DNA of 37,084 bases. Origin: Anaerolineae bacterium. Lineage in GTDB: Bacteria > Chloroflexota > Anaerolineae > B4-G1. The number at the start of each line of letters is the position of its first letter. Position 1 is the first letter of the stretch. Shown piece by piece: positions 7,269 through 15,838 of the stretch. The notes beneath the pieces are model-generated. The model ran no database searches, had not been told where the DNA came from, and saw nothing but the letters and a program-made list of their open reading frames with translations. The stretch covers positions 1 through 37,084 of the forward strand of contig JAOAAG010000217.1 in the NCBI GenBank assembly GCA_026418995.1, written 5' to 3'. A program made the position numbers and the translations under genes.

Positions 7269-8390
7269 TCACTCCAACCGCTTGCGGAAGCGCGTCGCCG
7301 CGAATGCCATAATGACCACTCCAAAGATCACCAGCGCGATGACCTGCTCCGCCAGCACCTCTAGTCCCACTCCCTTGAGGATGATGCCGCGCAGGATAAT
7401 CAGCATGTAGCGCAAGGGGATTGCGTAACTGAGCCATTGCAGCGCACGGGGCATCGCCTCCAAGGGGAAGAAAAAGCCCGCCAGGAAGATCGAGGGCAAC
7501 ACCATCAGCCAGACCAGCAGCATCGCCTCCTGCTGCGTGTTCGCCACCGACGAGACAAAGATGCCGATGCCCAGCGTCGTCATCAGGAAGATGGTGGCCA
7601 GCGCCAGCAACAACCCAACGCTGCCGTGGATCGGCACGCCGAACCAGAAGACGCCGATGGCGAGTACTTCGAGCACATCGAAAAAGGCGACAGCGACGTA
7701 GGGCAGTACCTTGCCCACGACCAGTTCGATGGGACGGATTGGCGTAACCATCAGTTGCTCGATGGTGCCGCGCTCCCGCTCGCGCACGATCGCCAGCGCC
7801 GTCAGCATCGCGGTCAGCAAGAAGAGAATCATCCCGATCAGTCCCGGAATCATAAAGTTGGCGCTCTTCATCTCCGGGTTGTACCAGACGCGGGGACGCA
7901 CCTCCAGCGCGGTCATACGCTCCGCCGAGATGCCCAGCCGTCGCTCGATGAGACGCACGCTCTGTGCCATCCCTACCTGCTGCGAAGCCGCCAGGACAAC
8001 GTTGGCAACGTTAGGGTCGGAGCCATCTATGACGAAGGCAACGCTGGCTATCCGCCCGGCGGCCACGTCAGCACCGAAACCGTCGGGGATCACCAGCCCG
8101 GCGCGTGCCCATCCCCGGTCTATCCAGTGCCCCAATTCCTCCTCGCTTTCGACGAAGGCCACGATGCCAAAGTAATCCGAAGCGCGATAGGCTTCCACCA
8201 GTTCGCGGCTCTGGGGGGTGCGGTCGCAATCGAGCACTACGGTGCGCCCGCGGCGGATGTCGGTCGTTGCCGCATAGCCCATCAGGAACAACTGCACGAC
8301 CGGGATGACGAACATCACCAGTAACGTGCGCCGGTCGCGGACAATGTGCAGCAATTCCTTGCGGGCAATCGTAAGCGTGCGCCTGACCAT
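7269..8390 (-). CDS. ABC-2 type permease (YbhR/YhhJ-like)
   Basis: A 373-residue membrane subunit of an ABC-2 exporter. It has an N-terminal helix after the amphipathic RRTLTIARKELLHIVRDRRT (typical start of the ABC2_membrane_3 family), an extracytoplasmic domain of about 140 residues and five C-terminal helices. The loop RERERGTIEQLMVTPI is the characteristic EERGT-type coupling motif. The ATG at 8390 overlaps the last base of the tetR-like stop (TGATG), which indicates coupling; a GTG three bases upstream is an alternative. The usual partners, an ATPase and an HlyD adaptor, are absent on both sides, so the permease must borrow an ATPase from elsewhere or the operon has been cut down. Drug efflux is a guess based on the regulator. 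Confidence 0.9.
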   Translation of the reverse strand: MVRRTLTIARKELLHIVRDRRTLLVMFVIPVVQLFLMGYAATTDIRRGRTVVLDCDRTPQSRELVEAYRASDYFGIVAFVESEEELGHWIDRGWARAGLVIPDGFGADVAAGRIASVAFVIDGSDPNVANVVLAASQQVGMAQSVRLIERRLGISAERMTALEVRPRVWYNPEMKSANFMIPGLIGMILFLLTAMLTALAIVRERERGTIEQLMVTPIRPIELVVGKVLPYVAVAFFDVLEVLAIGVFWFGVPIHGSVGLLLALATIFLMTTLGIGIFVSSVANTQQEAMLLVWLMVLPSIFLAGFFFPLEAMPRALQWLSYAIPLRYMLIILRGIILKGVGLEVLAEQVIALVIFGVVIMAFAATRFRKRLE

Positions 8391-8998
8391 CACGGTTTCT
8401 CCGGGCGCGGCAGGAGACCGTAGAGATACAGCCGGGTCAACTCCTCCACCAACTCATCGTCGGAAATGCCAGGCAGCAGTTGCTCCGGCATCAGTGCACG
8501 CAGCGCGGAAAGGATAACGATAGAACCCGCCACCGCCGTAACAACAATCTCGACCCGGCAGGGGCGCAGCCGATCGGCAGCGACCTGGGCCTGTAGATAC
8601 TGGGCGCCCGAAGCAAGGACAGGGCCGATGATCTGGGTAAAGAAGCGCTCGCGCAGCTCCCTATCGGTCCAGATCTCGGCGACCAGCGCCTGAAGGAAGG
8701 CCTGATTCTCACGGGCAAAGCGGATACGATCGCGGAGGACCGCAGCGATATACCCTGCGGTATCCTGGGTGGCCTCGGCGAGGGCCTGGTCCACCTGTTG
8801 AGTGATCAGGGCATCGGCAATTGCCAGCAACAACTCGCGCTTGTTCTTGAAGTAGAGGTAAATCGTGCCCGGAGCAATGCCTGCGTGGGCCGCGATCTCC
8901 TTCATTGTCGCCCGCTCGTACCCCTTCTCACCCAGGACCGCAGCCGCGGCCTCGAGGATTTGCGTGCGTCGGTCTTCAGGGAAGCCCGATTGCTCCAT
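8390..8998 (-). CDS. TetR/AcrR-family transcriptional repressor
   Basis: A 202-residue TetR regulator. The N-terminal HTH is clear: RRTQILEAAAAVLGEKGYERATMKEIAAHAGIAPGTIYLYFKNKRELL (shown in parts; about residues 10-57). The C-terminal ligand domain is variable, as usual. The chosen ATG has GGAGGG just upstream. The frame extends 14 codons further, into the operator and promoter, and those codons are unlikely to be translated. A TetR-type palindrome overlaps the expected transcription start, so autorepression together with the coupled ABC-2 permease is likely. The inducer is unknown. Confidence 0.93.
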   Translation of the reverse strand: MEQSGFPEDRRTQILEAAAAVLGEKGYERATMKEIAAHAGIAPGTIYLYFKNKRELLLAIADALITQQVDQALAEATQDTAGYIAAVLRDRIRFARENQAFLQALVAEIWTDRELRERFFTQIIGPVLASGAQYLQAQVAADRLRPCRVEIVVTAVAGSIVILSALRALMPEQLLPGISDDELVEELTRLYLYGLLPRPEKP

Positions 8999-9013
8999 CG
9001 TCCCTCCATAGTT

Positions 9014-9035
9014 TATGAATGAATGTTCATTTATA
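9014..9035. promoter_or_regulatory. TetR-type operator
   Basis: A 22-bp near-palindrome TAT-G-AATGAA-TG-TTCATT-T-ATA with one mismatched pair. The core AATGAATGTTCATT is of the type bound by many TetR/AcrR repressors. It lies between the -10 box and the start codon of the regulator, overlapping the predicted transcription start. Confidence 0.75.
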
Positions 9036-9038
9036 GCC

Positions 9039-9066
9039 ATTGTACCAGGGAGAAGGGGATTGTCAA
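9039..9066 (-). promoter_or_regulatory. Promoter of the TetR/ABC-2 permease operon
   Basis: Read on the minus strand: -35 TTGACA (9061-9066), a 16-base spacer and -10 TACAAT (9039-9044). Transcription would begin at about 9030, inside the palindromic operator. Confidence 0.75.
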
Positions 9067-9359: not shown

Positions 9360-10691
<1,332 letters not shown>

Positions 10692-10700
10692 CTCACCCTC

Positions 10701-11831
10701 CTATGCGCCAACTGCATGGGTCTCCGTCCGATGGATCGGTCGGTATCCCTGAGATGCCAGCTCTGGTGGCGGCAGCGAGGCCTCATCCGGCTTGTCCGAA
10801 AGGCCAAAGAGCAGCGCCCCCTGTTGACACCAGGCCTGCGCCAGCTCCCGCACTTCGTGGGTGACCACGATCTCGTCCCGCAACAGTTGCTCCACCGGGG
10901 TGCTATCGTCCAACTGCCCCATCCGCCCGATGGTTGTACGGTATTCGTTGTAACGGAAGGCTTTGAAGGGAGTGGGGTCGCCCTGTTGCACCAGGGCGTA
11001 GATGTCATTGTGGATGGCGCGTAAACTCGCCGGTAGCTCCGCAACGTGGTCATTGACCCAGGCGATAAACTGCTCAAAGCTCCTCATGCGACCGGATTTT
11101 ACATCTTCCACCAGCGACTCTAATGCTAGCAAGCCGCTGCCCAGGATCAGGCAGATGTAGCATAGATAGTCCTGATTGTCCGCAGTAAAGGGATGGAACT
11201 CGGCCCGTTTGAGCCGGTCATAGGCGGTTTGAAAGCGCGCCGGGTCGAATTCTTCTCCCAGGAGATTGCCTATGGTTAGGCGCACGGCCTCGACGCGTGC
11301 CAGGTCAATGACGTGGTCATTGCGCCCGCGCGCTCCTATCGCGGTTTTATCCAGGTCTACCACCACGGCCGTGTGTTCGTCTATTGGGAAATGGTTGGTG
11401 CGACAGAAGCGGTCAAAATCAGCCAACCCTGCCCAGCGGTTGGTCTGGTAAAATGTCTCGCCGCTCTGTTCGTTCACCTCCACACAGGCTGGAGAGTTGT
11501 CCTCTGCACAGATGAAAAGCACACCAGGCCATGCTCCAGCCCGACAGATGTTGATGAAGGCGGTGCCGTCGTTCATGCGAGTGTCGCCCAGGTAGATCAG
11601 GCGTTTCAGCGGGACGCGGGGGGCATCCAGCGCCCGTGCTTCTTTCAACAGGTGGGCGATGACGGAGGCGTATGCCGGCTCGCTCTTGCGCGGGATGACG
11701 CCTTGCGGCAGGCCCAGGCGGGGGGCGATCTCTGCCAGCGACGGCAGGCGTGGGTCGCACGGGACAAGGTTACGGTAGACGATGAAGTCCCCGATGAACG
11801 CGTGTACCGAGGTACGGCCGTATACTCTCAT
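10701..11831 (-). CDS. Unassigned operon protein X with HAD-like motifs in permuted order
   Basis: A 376-residue cytoplasmic protein between asd and thrC that I do not recognise as a named enzyme. Three stretches resemble haloacid-dehalogenase (HAD) phosphotransferase motifs. LIYLGDTRMNDGTAF (78-92) looks like the metal-binding motif IV. VVVDLDKTAIG (156-166) looks like motif I, with D159 as candidate nucleophile and D161 as acid/base. LLFGLSDKPDEA (340-351) looks like motif II (S345). In ordinary HAD proteins motif IV comes last; here it comes first, so the core may be circularly permuted. The region between (about 190-330) is alpha-helical in character. The start has AAGGAG eight bases upstream. 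The position inside a threonine operon that lacks thrB suggests a role in making or recycling phosphohomoserine; that is inference. A phosphatase of unrelated purpose is the main alternative. Confidence 0.8.
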   Translation of the reverse strand: MRVYGRTSVHAFIGDFIVYRNLVPCDPRLPSLAEIAPRLGLPQGVIPRKSEPAYASVIAHLLKEARALDAPRVPLKRLIYLGDTRMNDGTAFINICRAGAWPGVLFICAEDNSPACVEVNEQSGETFYQTNRWAGLADFDRFCRTNHFPIDEHTAVVVDLDKTAIGARGRNDHVIDLARVEAVRLTIGNLLGEEFDPARFQTAYDRLKRAEFHPFTADNQDYLCYICLILGSGLLALESLVEDVKSGRMRSFEQFIAWVNDHVAELPASLRAIHNDIYALVQQGDPTPFKAFRYNEYRTTIGRMGQLDDSTPVEQLLRDEIVVTHEVRELAQAWCQQGALLFGLSDKPDEASLPPPELASQGYRPIHRTETHAVGA

Positions 11832-11843
11832 AGAGACTGCTCC

Positions 11844-12929
11844 TTAAATGTAGCCTTTTGCCTTCAGCAGCTCAGCGCTGAGGATCGCCCCGCCCGCTGC
11901 TCCGCGTACCGTATTGTGCGACAGCGCCACAAAGCGCACGTCCAGCACCGGACACTCGCGCAGCCGCCCGATAGTGATGGCCATGCCGCGCCCGGCATCG
12001 CGGTCCCGGCGTGTCTGGGGCCGGTCAGGCTCATCACGGTAAATGAGCACTGGCTGTGGGGCAAACGGCAACCCCAGCTCCTGCGGCTCGGCCCGGAAGG
12101 TGCGCCAGATACGCACAATCTCGTCCAGCGCTGGCTTCCGTGACCTGAACTTGAGGCTGACGCAGGCCAGGTGACCATCGAGCGCCGGAACACGGTTGCA
12201 GTGGGCCGAGATGTGGATCGAGTGATCAGGCACGATCCGGCCATTCTGGATGAAGCCCAGGATTTTGCGCGGCTCCTGTTCGCTCTTCTCCTCCTCGCCG
12301 GGGATGTAAGGGATGATGTTGTCAATCATGTCAATGGAGGCCGGCCCCGGGTAACCCGCGCCGGAGACCGCCTGCATCGTGACGACCACCATGCTCTCCA
12401 CTTCGTATCCAGCTCTGAGCAGCGCGTAGACCGGCGGCAGGTAACTCTGGAGGCTGCAATTGGGTTTAACCACGATCAGGCCCCTATCCCAGCCCCGGTT
12501 TTGGCGCTGGAAAGGGATGATCTCGGTGTGGTGCGGATTCACCTCTGGGATGAGCACCGGCACATCCTCTGTCCACCGATGGGCCGAGTTGTTGGAGACG
12601 ACGGCCAACCCCTGGGCGGCATAGCGTTCTTCCAGCTCGCGCACTGCTTCCTTGTCCATTTCAACCGCCGAGAACACCAGATCACACTGCCGGCGGGCTG
12701 CGTCCACGTCCCCGGCATCGCCGACGGTCAGGTCAGCCACTGCTGCCGGCACCTCCTCGTCCAGCACCCAGCGTCCGGCTACGGCCTCCATGTATCTTTT
12801 GCCTGCGGAGCGGGGGGAGGCGGCGACGTAGGTGAGCTCAAACCAGGGATGGTTGCTCAGCAGCCGCACATAGTTCTGGCCGACCATGCCGGTCGCGCCG
12901 ATGACGCCCACCCGCACCTTACCCGCCAT
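11844..12929 (-). CDS. asd: Aspartate-semialdehyde dehydrogenase
   Basis: A 361-residue enzyme that reduces aspartyl-4-phosphate to aspartate semialdehyde with NADPH, the second step of the aspartate pathway. The N-terminal Rossmann motif is GVIGATGMVGQNY (8-20). The catalytic Cys is in KPNCSLQSY (C158), and the active-site region AHCNRVPALDGH carries the catalytic-type His. These features fit the archaeal/fungal-like branch of the family rather than the classical enterobacterial one. Its start overlaps the end of the aspartokinase gene by 11 bases, so the two are probably translationally coupled. The next gene is X, 12 bases on. Confidence 0.94.
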   Translation of the reverse strand: MAGKVRVGVIGATGMVGQNYVRLLSNHPWFELTYVAASPRSAGKRYMEAVAGRWVLDEEVPAAVADLTVGDAGDVDAARRQCDLVFSAVEMDKEAVRELEERYAAQGLAVVSNNSAHRWTEDVPVLIPEVNPHHTEIIPFQRQNRGWDRGLIVVKPNCSLQSYLPPVYALLRAGYEVESMVVVTMQAVSGAGYPGPASIDMIDNIIPYIPGEEEKSEQEPRKILGFIQNGRIVPDHSIHISAHCNRVPALDGHLACVSLKFRSRKPALDEIVRIWRTFRAEPQELGLPFAPQPVLIYRDEPDRPQTRRDRDAGRGMAITIGRLRECPVLDVRFVALSHNTVRGAAGGAILSAELLKAKGYI

Positions 12930-14331
12930 TGAGGATCACCTCTTTGTGGATTTGTTGCACGGCGCCGGCGGCATCTTTCGCCTCGACGACCAGCGAGATG
13001 CTGCATTCCGACGACCCCTGGGCGATAGCGATCACATTGATACTGGCCTGCCCCAGCGCACCGAAGAGCCGCGCGGCCACCCCGGGCGTGTTGCGCAGCC
13101 CGGCTCCGACCGCCGTGACGATTACCACATCATCCCACGACCAGACGCGGTCAATGTCCGAACGTGCCAGTTCACGTGCCATCTCCTCCTCAATTGCTCT
13201 CACCACTCGGGACACCGTCTCTGTCGGAATCACGAAGCAAATGGATTGCTCCGAGGAAGCCTGGGAGATCATCAGCACGCTGGCCCCCTGTCTGGCGACG
13301 GCGGAGAAGGTACGGGCGGCGATGCCTGGCACGCCCAGCATCCCGCGCCCCTCGACCGTCACCATGCTCATACCTTTGATCGCCGTGACCGCCTTGATGC
13401 GGCCGCGTTCCTGCTCCGGCTCCCCGGTGATGCAGGTACCCGGACAGGAGGGGTTGAAGGTGTTTTTAACCCAGAGGGGTATGCCACGCTGAACAACCGG
13501 CAGGATTGTCTTGGGGTGCAGGACTTTAGCCCCGAAATAGGCCAGCTCGCTGACCTCGCTGTATGAGAGCGTGGGGATAACGCGGGCGTCCGGCACCAGG
13601 CGTGGATCGGCCGTCATTACCCCGTCCACGTCCGTCCACGTCCAGACCTCAGCGGCGTCAACGCAATCGCCCAGGATGGCGGCGGTGTAATCGCTCCCCC
13701 CGCGCCCCAGCGTCGTGATCACACCCTGTTCCGTAGCCCCGATGAAGCCGGTCACCACGGGGATGACACCGTCATCCAGCAACGGCCTCAGTCGTTCCGA
13801 GACCTTGGCGCGCGTGATCTCCATCAGTGGCGCGGCGTTCTGGAAATTGTCGTCGGTGATGATCAACTGGGTAGCATCCACAGCCTCGCTGCGCAAGCCG
13901 CGCCGGCGTAGCACGGCGGCGAAGATACGGGCGTTGATGCGCTCGCCCAGGGACGAGATCGCGTCGAGCGCACGGGGCGTCAACTCGCCCAGAATGTGGA
14001 CACTGTAACAGAAAGAGGAGAGCTCATCTATCAGGCGGTCCACTGTAGCGAGCAGTTGGACGCGCTCGCCGCCCTGGGTAAGCAACCGGCCTACCACGTC
14101 GTGGTGTCGGCTGCGCAGGTCACCGATGATGGCGCGGTAGGTGGTGTCGTCACCCATCTCGGCTGCTCGGGCGCTGCGGATCAGCGCATCGGTCACGCCG
14201 CTCATCGCCGAGACAACGACCACCATCTTTTGCCAGCGTGCCGCGTACTCCTGCACCAGGTCGGCAGCCTGGGTGATGGCTTCTGCGCTGCCCACCGAGG
14301 TACCGCCAAATTTCATCACGAGTGTGCCCAT
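12919..14331 (-). CDS. Aspartate kinase
   Basis: A 470-residue monofunctional aspartokinase that phosphorylates L-aspartate at the head of the Thr/Met/Lys pathway. Motifs are MKFGGTSVG at the N-terminus, VVVVSAMSGVTDALI, FGGSD-like GRGGSDYTAAILG, WTDVDGVMTADPR and SYSEVSELAYFGAKVLHP. Two C-terminal ACT domains (about 320-470) suggest feedback control, probably by threonine or lysine. The ATG at 14331 has GGAGGT five bases upstream. The longer open frame would read through the palindrome between the genes and is unlikely. The 116-base gap from hom holds a strong 15-bp hairpin. Confidence 0.94.
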   Translation of the reverse strand: MGTLVMKFGGTSVGSAEAITQAADLVQEYAARWQKMVVVVSAMSGVTDALIRSARAAEMGDDTTYRAIIGDLRSRHHDVVGRLLTQGGERVQLLATVDRLIDELSSFCYSVHILGELTPRALDAISSLGERINARIFAAVLRRRGLRSEAVDATQLIITDDNFQNAAPLMEITRAKVSERLRPLLDDGVIPVVTGFIGATEQGVITTLGRGGSDYTAAILGDCVDAAEVWTWTDVDGVMTADPRLVPDARVIPTLSYSEVSELAYFGAKVLHPKTILPVVQRGIPLWVKNTFNPSCPGTCITGEPEQERGRIKAVTAIKGMSMVTVEGRGMLGVPGIAARTFSAVARQGASVLMISQASSEQSICFVIPTETVSRVVRAIEEEMARELARSDIDRVWSWDDVVIVTAVGAGLRNTPGVAARLFGALGQASINVIAIAQGSSECSISLVVEAKDAAGAVQQIHKEVILNGG

Positions 14332-14420
14332 ATGCGACCTCCGCATAGATGTGGGTTTTGCCTGGCGAAACAGGCCTCCAGGCCTGCCCAGATGACTAGA
14401 AAGGGCCGTCCTGCGCGGCG

Positions 14421-14453
14421 AGGTGACGGTCACTTCCCAAGTGACCGTCACCT
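14421..14453. repeat. 15-bp perfect palindrome between hom and ask
   Basis: Arms AGGTGACGGTCACTT and AAGTGACCGTCACCT around the 3-base loop CCC. It covers the last codon and stop codon of hom (14448-14453). As RNA it would form a very stable hairpin, able to segment or attenuate the operon mRNA. A related palindrome lies at 4033-4064. A 15-base part of it (GACGGTCACTTCCCA) recurs at 15075-15089 inside hom. Confidence 0.8.
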
Positions 14454-15518
14454 GATATCGCTCCTCCCCAGTTCGATAATATCTCCGAGGACCCCAGCGG
14501 CCGTCACTTCCCGTCCAGCGCCCGGACCGCAAATGACCAGTGGAATTTCATTATAGCGCGCCGTGTAGAAGGCAAAGTGATTGCCCGGCCCGCGCAGCAT
14601 ACCCAGAGCACTTTCGCGCGGCACCGGCGTCAACCCCACCATTCCTGCCTGTGGCGTCACCCGGGCGACGTAGCGCAGGATATTGCCTTCGTTCCAGGCC
14701 CTGGCCCGACGGGCCGCGTATTCCTCGTCCAGCCGCTCAATGGCAGCGAGGAACTCATCCACCGTGAGCGAGGCCAGTTCTCTGGGATATAGCGATTCGA
14801 CCGCCAGGTTCTCCTGGTCCAGCGGCCAGCCTGCGGTGCGGGCCAGAATGAGCGCCTTGCGTGCCACGTCCATGCCGCTCAGGTCCTCGCGTGGATCCGG
14901 CTCGGTGTAGCCCAGCTCCCGCGCTCTCCGTACAGCGCTCGAGTAGGGCACCTCCTGTTCAAGTTCCGAGCACAGGTAGCCCAGCGTCCCACTCATGCAC
15001 CCCTCGATGGCGGTTATCTGGTCTCCCGTGTCTAGCAGGTAATTCAGCGTAGCAATCACCGGCAGGCCGGCCCCGACGGTCACTTCCCAGCGCACTTTGG
15101 GGTGCTCAAAGAAGATGCGAGCCTCCTCCCAGGGGGCGGCCAGCGGGAGCTTATTGGCAAGCACGAGGCCACAGCCCGCGTCTAACGCCGCCTTCAGTAT
15201 GGGGACAGTGTGTGGAGAAGCGGTCAGGTCGGCCAGAATGACGCCCGGTTGCAAGGCGGACCTGATGGCGTCGAGCGGGAGGACACCTGGCAGGGACTCA
15301 AGCAGGCGACCACTGGCAACCGCTTGCAGCGCAGCGCGCAGCGTCTCTTCAGGTAGACCTTGGGCGTTGTATAACACACCGCTGATATCGGCCAGTGCGA
15401 TCGGCACAATCTGCACCCCCGCACGGCTGGCGACTGTCTCCCGTGTTTCCAGCACCTGACGCAAGAGGGTACTACCGACATTGCCAAAACCCAGGAAGAT
15501 TAACCTGATCTCGTGCAT
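14448..15518 (-). CDS. hom: Homoserine dehydrogenase
   Basis: A 356-residue NAD(P)H enzyme that reduces aspartate semialdehyde to homoserine. The N-terminal nucleotide-binding motif is LIFLGFGNVGSTLL (6-19). Substrate-domain landmarks are GCMSGTLGYL (about 188-197) and EDLSGMDVARKALILAR (about 225-241), which holds the catalytic Asp and Lys. It is a short form without the C-terminal ACT domain seen in many Gram-positive enzymes, so feedback control may rest on the T-box leader and the aspartokinase. AAGGAG lies four bases before the ATG. It is the first gene of the hom-ask-asd-X-thrC operon. Confidence 0.93.
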   Translation of the reverse strand: MHEIRLIFLGFGNVGSTLLRQVLETRETVASRAGVQIVPIALADISGVLYNAQGLPEETLRAALQAVASGRLLESLPGVLPLDAIRSALQPGVILADLTASPHTVPILKAALDAGCGLVLANKLPLAAPWEEARIFFEHPKVRWEVTVGAGLPVIATLNYLLDTGDQITAIEGCMSGTLGYLCSELEQEVPYSSAVRRARELGYTEPDPREDLSGMDVARKALILARTAGWPLDQENLAVESLYPRELASLTVDEFLAAIERLDEEYAARRARAWNEGNILRYVARVTPQAGMVGLTPVPRESALGMLRGPGNHFAFYTARYNEIPLVICGPGAGREVTAAGVLGDIIELGRSDIR

Positions 15519-15540: not shown

Positions 15541-15805
15541 ATACGCAAAAACCCCGCGCCCCTGGGGCGCGGGGTCTCCCACGCGGTTCCACCCAAGTTC
15601 CACACACTCGCGGTGTGGCACTCTAGCGGCGATAACGGGCCAGCCCGGACTCCCATACTCTCGCTGCGCGATTTGAGGGAGTCGCTCACGGGGGGTTTTC
15701 CCAGCCATCCAGCCAGGGAGGCTTCCAGCCTTTGGCCTCCCCTCTCTGAGGCCTTACCGGGTGGTACTCGTCCCGATCAGCGCTTTCTTCAGTCTTAATT
15801 GGCAG
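15541..15805 (-). promoter_or_regulatory. T-box riboswitch leader, probably tRNA-Thr responsive
   Basis: Minus-strand leader of the threonine operon. The T-box sequence TGGGTGGAACCGCGTGG lies at 15579-15595, just before a strong terminator. Stem I is recognisable: an AGTA turn in GGGACGAGTACC near the 5' end, an AGAGA element, a 7-bp distal helix GGGAGGC/GCCTCCC, and on the 3' side GGGAAAACCCCC. The turn partner GAA there is followed by ACC (15694-15696), a threonine codon placed where the specifier is expected. The tRNA-end-binding bulge reads UGGA (15588-15591), predicting a tRNA with U at the discriminator position. Uncharged tRNA would stabilise the antiterminator and switch the operon on. 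Confidence 0.9.
15547..15575 (-). terminator. T-box regulatory terminator
   Basis: An 11-bp GC-rich stem, ACCCCGCGCCC/GGGCGCGGGGT with loop of three, followed on the minus strand by TTTTTGCG. It is the intrinsic terminator alternative to the T-box antiterminator and ends 28 bases before the hom start codon. Confidence 0.9.
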
Positions 15806-15810
15806 CAACT

Positions 15811-15838
15811 ATTATATCAGCTTCCCGCAATTTGGCAA
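15811..15838 (-). promoter_or_regulatory. hom: Promoter of the T-box/threonine operon
   Basis: Minus strand: -35 TTGCCA (15833-15838), a 16-base spacer and a perfect -10 TATAAT (15811-15816). The transcript would begin at about 15804, directly ahead of Stem I of the T-box. Its -35 box overlaps the -35 box of the divergent MFS promoter. Confidence 0.8.

Follow-up and report, generated by a model that had tools for sequence, protein, structure and literature searches.

A gene of the threonine operon hom-ask-asd-X-thrC in an Anaerolineae bacterium, here called X, is proposed to replace homoserine kinase and to make O-phosphohomoserine, likely as a permuted HAD-type phosphotransferase; a probability of roughly 70% is assigned to this reading. 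Threonine synthase (ThrC) needs O-phosphohomoserine, and X lies between asd and thrC, in an operon apparently under threonyl-tRNA control and in a genome in which no known homoserine kinase was found, so that X most likely makes this compound. On balance, the same data favor X as the first member of a new class of enzymes that phosphorylate homoserine, either a kinase or a phosphotransferase, with a circularly permuted HAD core and possibly with ATP as the donor.

The threonine operon and its T-box leader

The window, that is, the whole stretch of 37,084 nucleotides that was analyzed, belongs to a genome assembly of 3.85 Mb in 418 contigs that is 96% complete. X is the fourth gene of the operon and encodes 376 amino acids. 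It is a real gene, with motif residues invariant in 88 of 88 aligned copies and asd directly upstream in 13 of 13 phylum relatives, which is more than expected by chance. The operon genes, all on the minus strand, and the elements upstream of hom are as follows.

9360..10691, minus strand: thrC, threonine synthase (TIGR00260, 217.6 bits, cut-off 167.1)
10701..11831, minus strand: X, candidate homoserine-phosphorylating enzyme, apparently a circularly permuted HAD-type protein (open reading frame, relatives, AlphaFold model)
11844..12929, minus strand: asd, aspartate-semialdehyde dehydrogenase (TIGR00978, 375 bits, over cut-off)
12919..14340, minus strand: ask, aspartate kinase (PRK06291, 546 bits, over cut-off)
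14448..15518, minus strand: hom, homoserine dehydrogenase (best NCBIfam matches to the HSD half of the bifunctional ThrA/MetL models PRK09436/PRK09466, and to PRK06270)
15547..15579, minus strand: intrinsic terminator of the T-box leader (15-pair stem followed by a T run)
15560..15789, minus strand: T-box leader before hom, specifier ACC (Thr) (RF00230, 103.8 bits, gathering threshold 93)
15811..15838, minus strand: promoter-like site, TTGCCA-16-TATAAT, 11/12 (sequence)

From ask to thrC, neighboring genes overlap or are spaced by about a dozen bases, with thrC starting 9 bases downstream of X, and a gap of about a hundred bases lies between hom and ask. Since NCBIfam names the neighbors of X, the first-pass annotation was right to read the region as a threonine operon in which every other step is identified. 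Its observation that X is not a GHMP kinase also held, as no GHMP model was matched in Pfam and NCBIfam searches. More broadly, X gave no significant match to Pfam, NCBIfam or PDB sequences; in the NCBIfam search TIGR00191 and TIGR02535 did not exceed their cut-offs and TIGR02137 was not matched at all. Downstream of thrC, at 7269-9040 on the minus strand, an ABC-2 transporter permease and a TetR regulator are encoded, which by position lie outside the operon.

The leader before hom, which the first-pass annotation had missed together with the motif III lysine K49 described below, has the features of a threonine-type T-box: an RF00230 match over the gathering threshold, a threonine specifier and a terminator. 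The 3′ side of its specifier loop reads GAA-A-ACC-C, and the Rfam consensus GAA-a-uuc-a places the specifier at ACC, which by this positional reading of our own would denote threonine. The T-box sequence is UGGA, which predicts base pairing with a tRNA whose discriminator base is U; no tRNA-Thr gene was present in the loci examined. With such a specifier, uncharged tRNA-Thr is expected to be the signal for the operon, so that a shortage of threonyl-tRNA very probably switches on expression of its genes, X among them. Two other X operons, L040 and L045, have a T-box leader before hom with the same specifier loop, the former found at an E-value threshold (87 bits in Rfam, under gathering, E = 1.4e-17) and the latter by motif. 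None of 19 other X loci has a T-box at the gathering threshold, indicating that this control is not general. T-boxes of Chloroflexi named previously lie upstream of ile tRNA ligase, trpE and trpB-like genes (PMC2494555).

Distribution of X and of known homoserine kinases

A search of the genome for thrB, named in the first-pass annotation as a test that could overturn its proposal, came out in favor of it: in the window's genome TIGR00191 has a single, weak match, a mevalonate kinase, and TIGR00938 and TIGR02137 gave zero matches. Other candidates were rejected. The TIGR02535 match in this genome (159 bits against a cut-off of 446) is a phosphoglycerate mutase, matching PRK04135 at 602 bits, over cut-off. 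A Desulfovibrio-type kinase is likewise not indicated, the single shikimate kinase domain of the genome being located inside a 570-amino-acid open frame that is probably a fusion of shikimate kinase with another shikimate-pathway gene. TIGR02137 does match control genomes, probably owing to SerB; its failure to match the window's genome may mean that the phosphoserine phosphatase is absent or atypical there, which would fit X with phosphoserine as donor.

Relatives of X number in the hundreds, nearly all in Chloroflexota. X is present in 14 of 201 genomes of this phylum, as single-sequence and profile searches agree, and 13 of these first 14 genomes are at least 90% complete with no more than 5% contamination. 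A thrB over cut-off occurs in 140 of the 201 genomes, namely in none of the 14 with X and in 140 of the 187 without it (Fisher p = 1.8e-8, with no correction for kinship, the 14 X genomes representing six families). When TIGR02535 over cut-off, found in 19 of the 201 genomes and never in one with X, is counted as a known alternative, p becomes 9e-11, shared ancestry again being ignored. A scan of an 84,980-species collection yielded 50 further X genomes, one of which has thrB over cut-off, so that 63 of 64 X genomes overall lack it. The strongest sub-cut-off TIGR00191 matches among the 50 (L156-L160) resemble IspE or mevalonate kinase in their first residues. Thus, X and thrB are almost mutually exclusive, which supports X as a candidate for the unrelated solution to the missing step that the first-pass annotation had put forward. 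The exception is G203 (L037, CP070666.1), which has X plus a true thrB. This genome is labelled Gemmatimonadota, its X is 67% identical to that of the window, and no threonine gene was recognized nearby at a stricter threshold; transfer or a chimeric assembly is suggested. Viral contigs contained no X relatives, and retroviral capsid matches of the A3 profile were taken as chance.

The association of X with the threonine pathway extends across its relatives. In 13 of 13 phylum relatives asd lies directly upstream of X, at X protein identities down to 33%. Among a wider set of 79 loci, 71 have threonine-pathway genes in the fetched flanks and 8 have no recognized threonine neighbor. Within 150 bases upstream of X, a pathway gene is found in 52 of the 79 loci (asd in 40, ask in 10, hom and thrC in one each), and thrC lies within 150 bases downstream in 28, in 4 of these on the opposite strand. 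A gene-neighborhood survey of X beside thrC, as proposed at first pass, therefore finds threonine genes to be frequent, the deepest link being to asd and not to thrC. At L048, L049, L053, L055, L056, L057 and L068, thrC is on the opposite strand facing X, with no asd or ask recognized near.

Neither thrB nor TIGR02535 over cut-off nor X is present in about 30 of the 201 phylum genomes (e.g., G034, G043, G070, G078, G102, G110, G128, G166, G168, G192 and G200). The phylum therefore has at least one more route that X leaves unexplained, or includes auxotrophs; these genomes likely either contain another homoserine kinase, possibly the L136 APH-type protein, or are auxotrophic. The APH-type proteins of Chloroflexales and G166 are located as follows.

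L133, 4791-5768: APH-type protein, best NCBIfam match homoserine kinase, sub-cut-off
L134, 4398-5402: APH-type protein, best NCBIfam match homoserine kinase, sub-cut-off
L136, 4589-5623: APH-type protein, best NCBIfam match homoserine kinase, sub-cut-off

Conserved residues and predicted fold

Conservation was counted over 88 aligned X sequences. Invariant in all 88 are R20, R48, K49, G82, D83, T84, D88, W133, D159, D161, K162, G169, R170, R179, T216, D218-D221, T287, P288, F292, R293, E296, S345-P348, E350 and H367. Three motifs recorded at first pass, GDTRMND, DLDKT and GLSDKPDE (343-350), are found in the translation at exactly the residues given. Loss of D159/D161 across homologues, which had been named as grounds for rejecting a HAD assignment, was not seen, both residues being kept in 88 of 88. 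The conserved elements are listed here.

11685..11687, minus strand: K49, candidate motif III lysine (88/88; before the helix preceding the motif IV strand)
11568..11588, minus strand: GDTRMND 82-88, candidate motif IV (G82, D83, T84 and D88 invariant; strand 77-82, then helix)
11343..11357, minus strand: DLDKT 159-163, candidate motif I (D159, D161 and K162 88/88; strand 154-159)
11322..11330, minus strand: RGR 168-170, conserved loop after motif I (G169 and R170 88/88; R168 86/88)
11169..11180, minus strand: DNQD 218-221, invariant in the helical cap, candidate substrate site (alignment; cap helices 172-319)
10953..10979, minus strand: DPTPFKAFR 285-293, nearly invariant in the cap (alignment)
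10782..10799, minus strand: SDKPDE 345-350, candidate motif II (S345, D346, K347, P348 and E350 88/88; strand 340-344)

An AlphaFold model of X (mean pLDDT 95.2, pTM 0.91) places the candidate motifs I to IV in a HAD-like setting. In the N-terminal half, K49 precedes helix 52-69, which lies ahead of strand 77-82, as for a motif III lysine; GDTxxxD follows this strand, as for motif IV, and leads into helix 85-99, strand 103-108, a hairpin and a linker. In the C-terminal half, DxDKT stands at the end of strand 154-159 with short-strand residues following, in agreement with a motif I of the form DxDx[TV] and a squiggle/flap behind it; helices 172-319 come next, then helix 325-336, strand 340-344, ended by S345 as for motif II, and strand 371-375. 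The canonical order I-II-III-IV is absent in X, and the observed order is III-IV-I-II; X is therefore regarded as a protein that works like a HAD enzyme and is probably a permuted relative of the superfamily, not an ordinary member. The predicted order of elements, III-IV-I-cap-II, is what a C1-capped HAD domain would show if its chain were opened between motif II with the third strand and the motif III helix and its original ends were linked.

Profile comparisons are consistent with such an arrangement. When the halves of X were aligned by hhalign to 12 HADs of the window's own genome, motif IV fell in register in 6 of 12 and motif I in 3 of 12, and one of these HADs (L148) aligned with X from K49, which paired with the candidate motif III lysine of L148, through motif IV. 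Summed over six of these HADs, the scores of the two halves exceeded the maxima of 20 column-shuffled controls (85.5 against 81.0 and 104.2 against 96.1). The whole permuted X profile was not significant against HADs by hhalign, fragments performing better, and artificially permuted sequences found only PF00702 in Pfam at a nonsignificant E of 0.24. In a Foldseek search of PDB and BFVD, the full model had no significant match in chain order; fragment 150-376 retrieved the HADs 1swv, 4knv, 8wbn and 7qnm, all as weak matches, of which 1swv (phosphonoacetaldehyde hydrolase) had the top TM-score among the 50 matches listed, at 0.31. Of the permuted-HAD reading offered at first pass, the motif order thus gained support from the order of secondary-structure elements and from in-register profiles, but not from the fold search, which gave no significant HAD. 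A chain-order search cannot confirm a permutation, and X is accordingly described as a probable, not an established, permuted HAD.

Proposed reaction, alternatives and known systems

Homoserine, the product of hom, would be converted by X to O-phosphohomoserine and passed to ThrC. In the proposed active site, residues ~40-110 would supply motifs III (K49) and IV (GDTxxxD), 154-163 motif I, 172-320 the cap and 340-350 motif II (S345). Mg2+ would be held by D159, the backbone of D161 and D83/D88; D159 would act as the nucleophile that takes phosphate from the donor, with D161 as acid/base, and homoserine, bound under the cap by residues of DNQD, TPFxxFR and RGR, would accept the phosphate from phospho-Asp159. 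As to the donor, phosphoserine, as in ThrH, is our first guess, followed by ATP or another phosphate compound. To our knowledge, ATP-dependent small-molecule kinases of the HAD type have not been established. We infer the permuted fold of X, its reaction and its donor from the data above.

Homoserine might instead be phosphorylated by an unrecognized kinase, such as a relative of the APH-type ThrB2, leaving X a regulatory or phosphatase role in aspartate-family metabolism. This is unlikely, even though the Chloroflexales genomes with X and the X-less G166 carry an APH-type protein (87-121 bits against the PRK05231 homoserine kinase model, cut-off 271), a rival to X in Chloroflexales, and X is linked most deeply to asd: TIGR00938 finds nothing in the window's genome or in those of its class relatives G136 and G184, no threonine gene is evident next to the APH-type genes at the loci listed, and the near-complete exclusion of thrB from X genomes would have no explanation if another kinase did the work. 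The same exclusion bears on the option, raised at first pass, that X is a HAD phosphatase hydrolyzing phosphohomoserine or another phosphate ester and so tuning the pathway. The operon position of X allows such a role, and a DxD motif I with a second aspartate is typical of HAD phosphatases; a phosphatase, however, is not expected almost only where thrB is absent. Because it would also leave the organism without a homoserine kinase, this option is very unlikely. As for an ordinary operon whose thrB was lost through incomplete assembly, the 418 contigs and 96% completeness of the window's genome give some room for it, but with thrB lacking over cut-off in 63 of 64 X genomes, and 13 of the first 14 being at least 90% complete, its probability is close to negligible.

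It is quite unlikely that the motifs are coincidental and that X is a non-HAD kinase or transferase of new fold. Such an origin would account for the lack of significant Foldseek, Pfam and PDB sequence matches and for the E of 0.24 to PF00702 after permutation, yet it would leave to chance that the model contains K-helix-strand-GDTxxxD, strand-DxDKT-cap and helix-strand-S with invariant residues, that HADs from the window's genome fall in register with X at motifs III/IV and I and that both halves score above all 20 shuffles. The preferred reading remains that X is a permuted HAD-type phosphotransferase in place of homoserine kinase.

The need for unknown homoserine kinases has been stated previously (PMC5764234, PMC7311316), and X is a specific, testable candidate, and the best one, for a replacement in part of Chloroflexota, a phylum in which many bacteria produce threonine yet do not have the usual homoserine kinase. 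No description of the X family or of a circularly permuted HAD was found in the literature searched, mostly hit lists. If true, the permutation would be the first described for a HAD enzyme within that literature, and would account for the failure of sequence and fold searches to annotate the X family. We infer that X combines HAD-type chemistry for a known reaction with an unusual topology in an undescribed family.

Several known systems are comparable to X. With ThrH of Pseudomonas, a HAD enzyme, phosphoserine serves as the phosphate donor to homoserine and ATP is not needed (PMC1079889). Both proteins have HAD-type motifs, and the phospho-enzyme intermediate and the product O-phosphohomoserine of ThrH are also proposed for X; in contrast, the ThrH model TIGR02137 has 203 positions, and X matches no NCBIfam model. 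The TIGR02137 family has the canonical HAD motif order. C1-capped HAD phosphatases (PF00702) resemble X in motif residues and, according to the model, in the order of strands and motifs within each half, but run I-II-III-IV where X runs III-IV-I-II, and X has no Pfam match over cut-off. The GHMP homoserine kinase ThrB (TIGR00191) and the APH-type ThrB2 (TIGR00938) share only the pathway position of X, the former differing in fold and motifs and the latter having a protein-kinase-like fold. The TIGR02535 protein of Bacteroides and others, a non-GHMP protein encoded beside threonine genes in genomes without thrB, has been proposed as a homoserine kinase acting by phosphate transfer (PMC7311316); it is a phosphoglycerate mutase relative, unrelated to X in sequence. 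One member, BT2402, did not complement an E. coli delta-thrB strain (PMC7311316). Likewise, DvMF_0971 of Desulfovibrio, a shikimate-kinase-like homoserine kinase that complements E. coli thrB (PMC5764234), is a precedent for a nonorthologous homoserine kinase, although it is related to shikimate kinase. Should X prove to be a new class, it would add a further unrelated solution beside the GHMP, APH-type, shikimate-kinase-like and phosphoglycerate-mutase-like enzymes.
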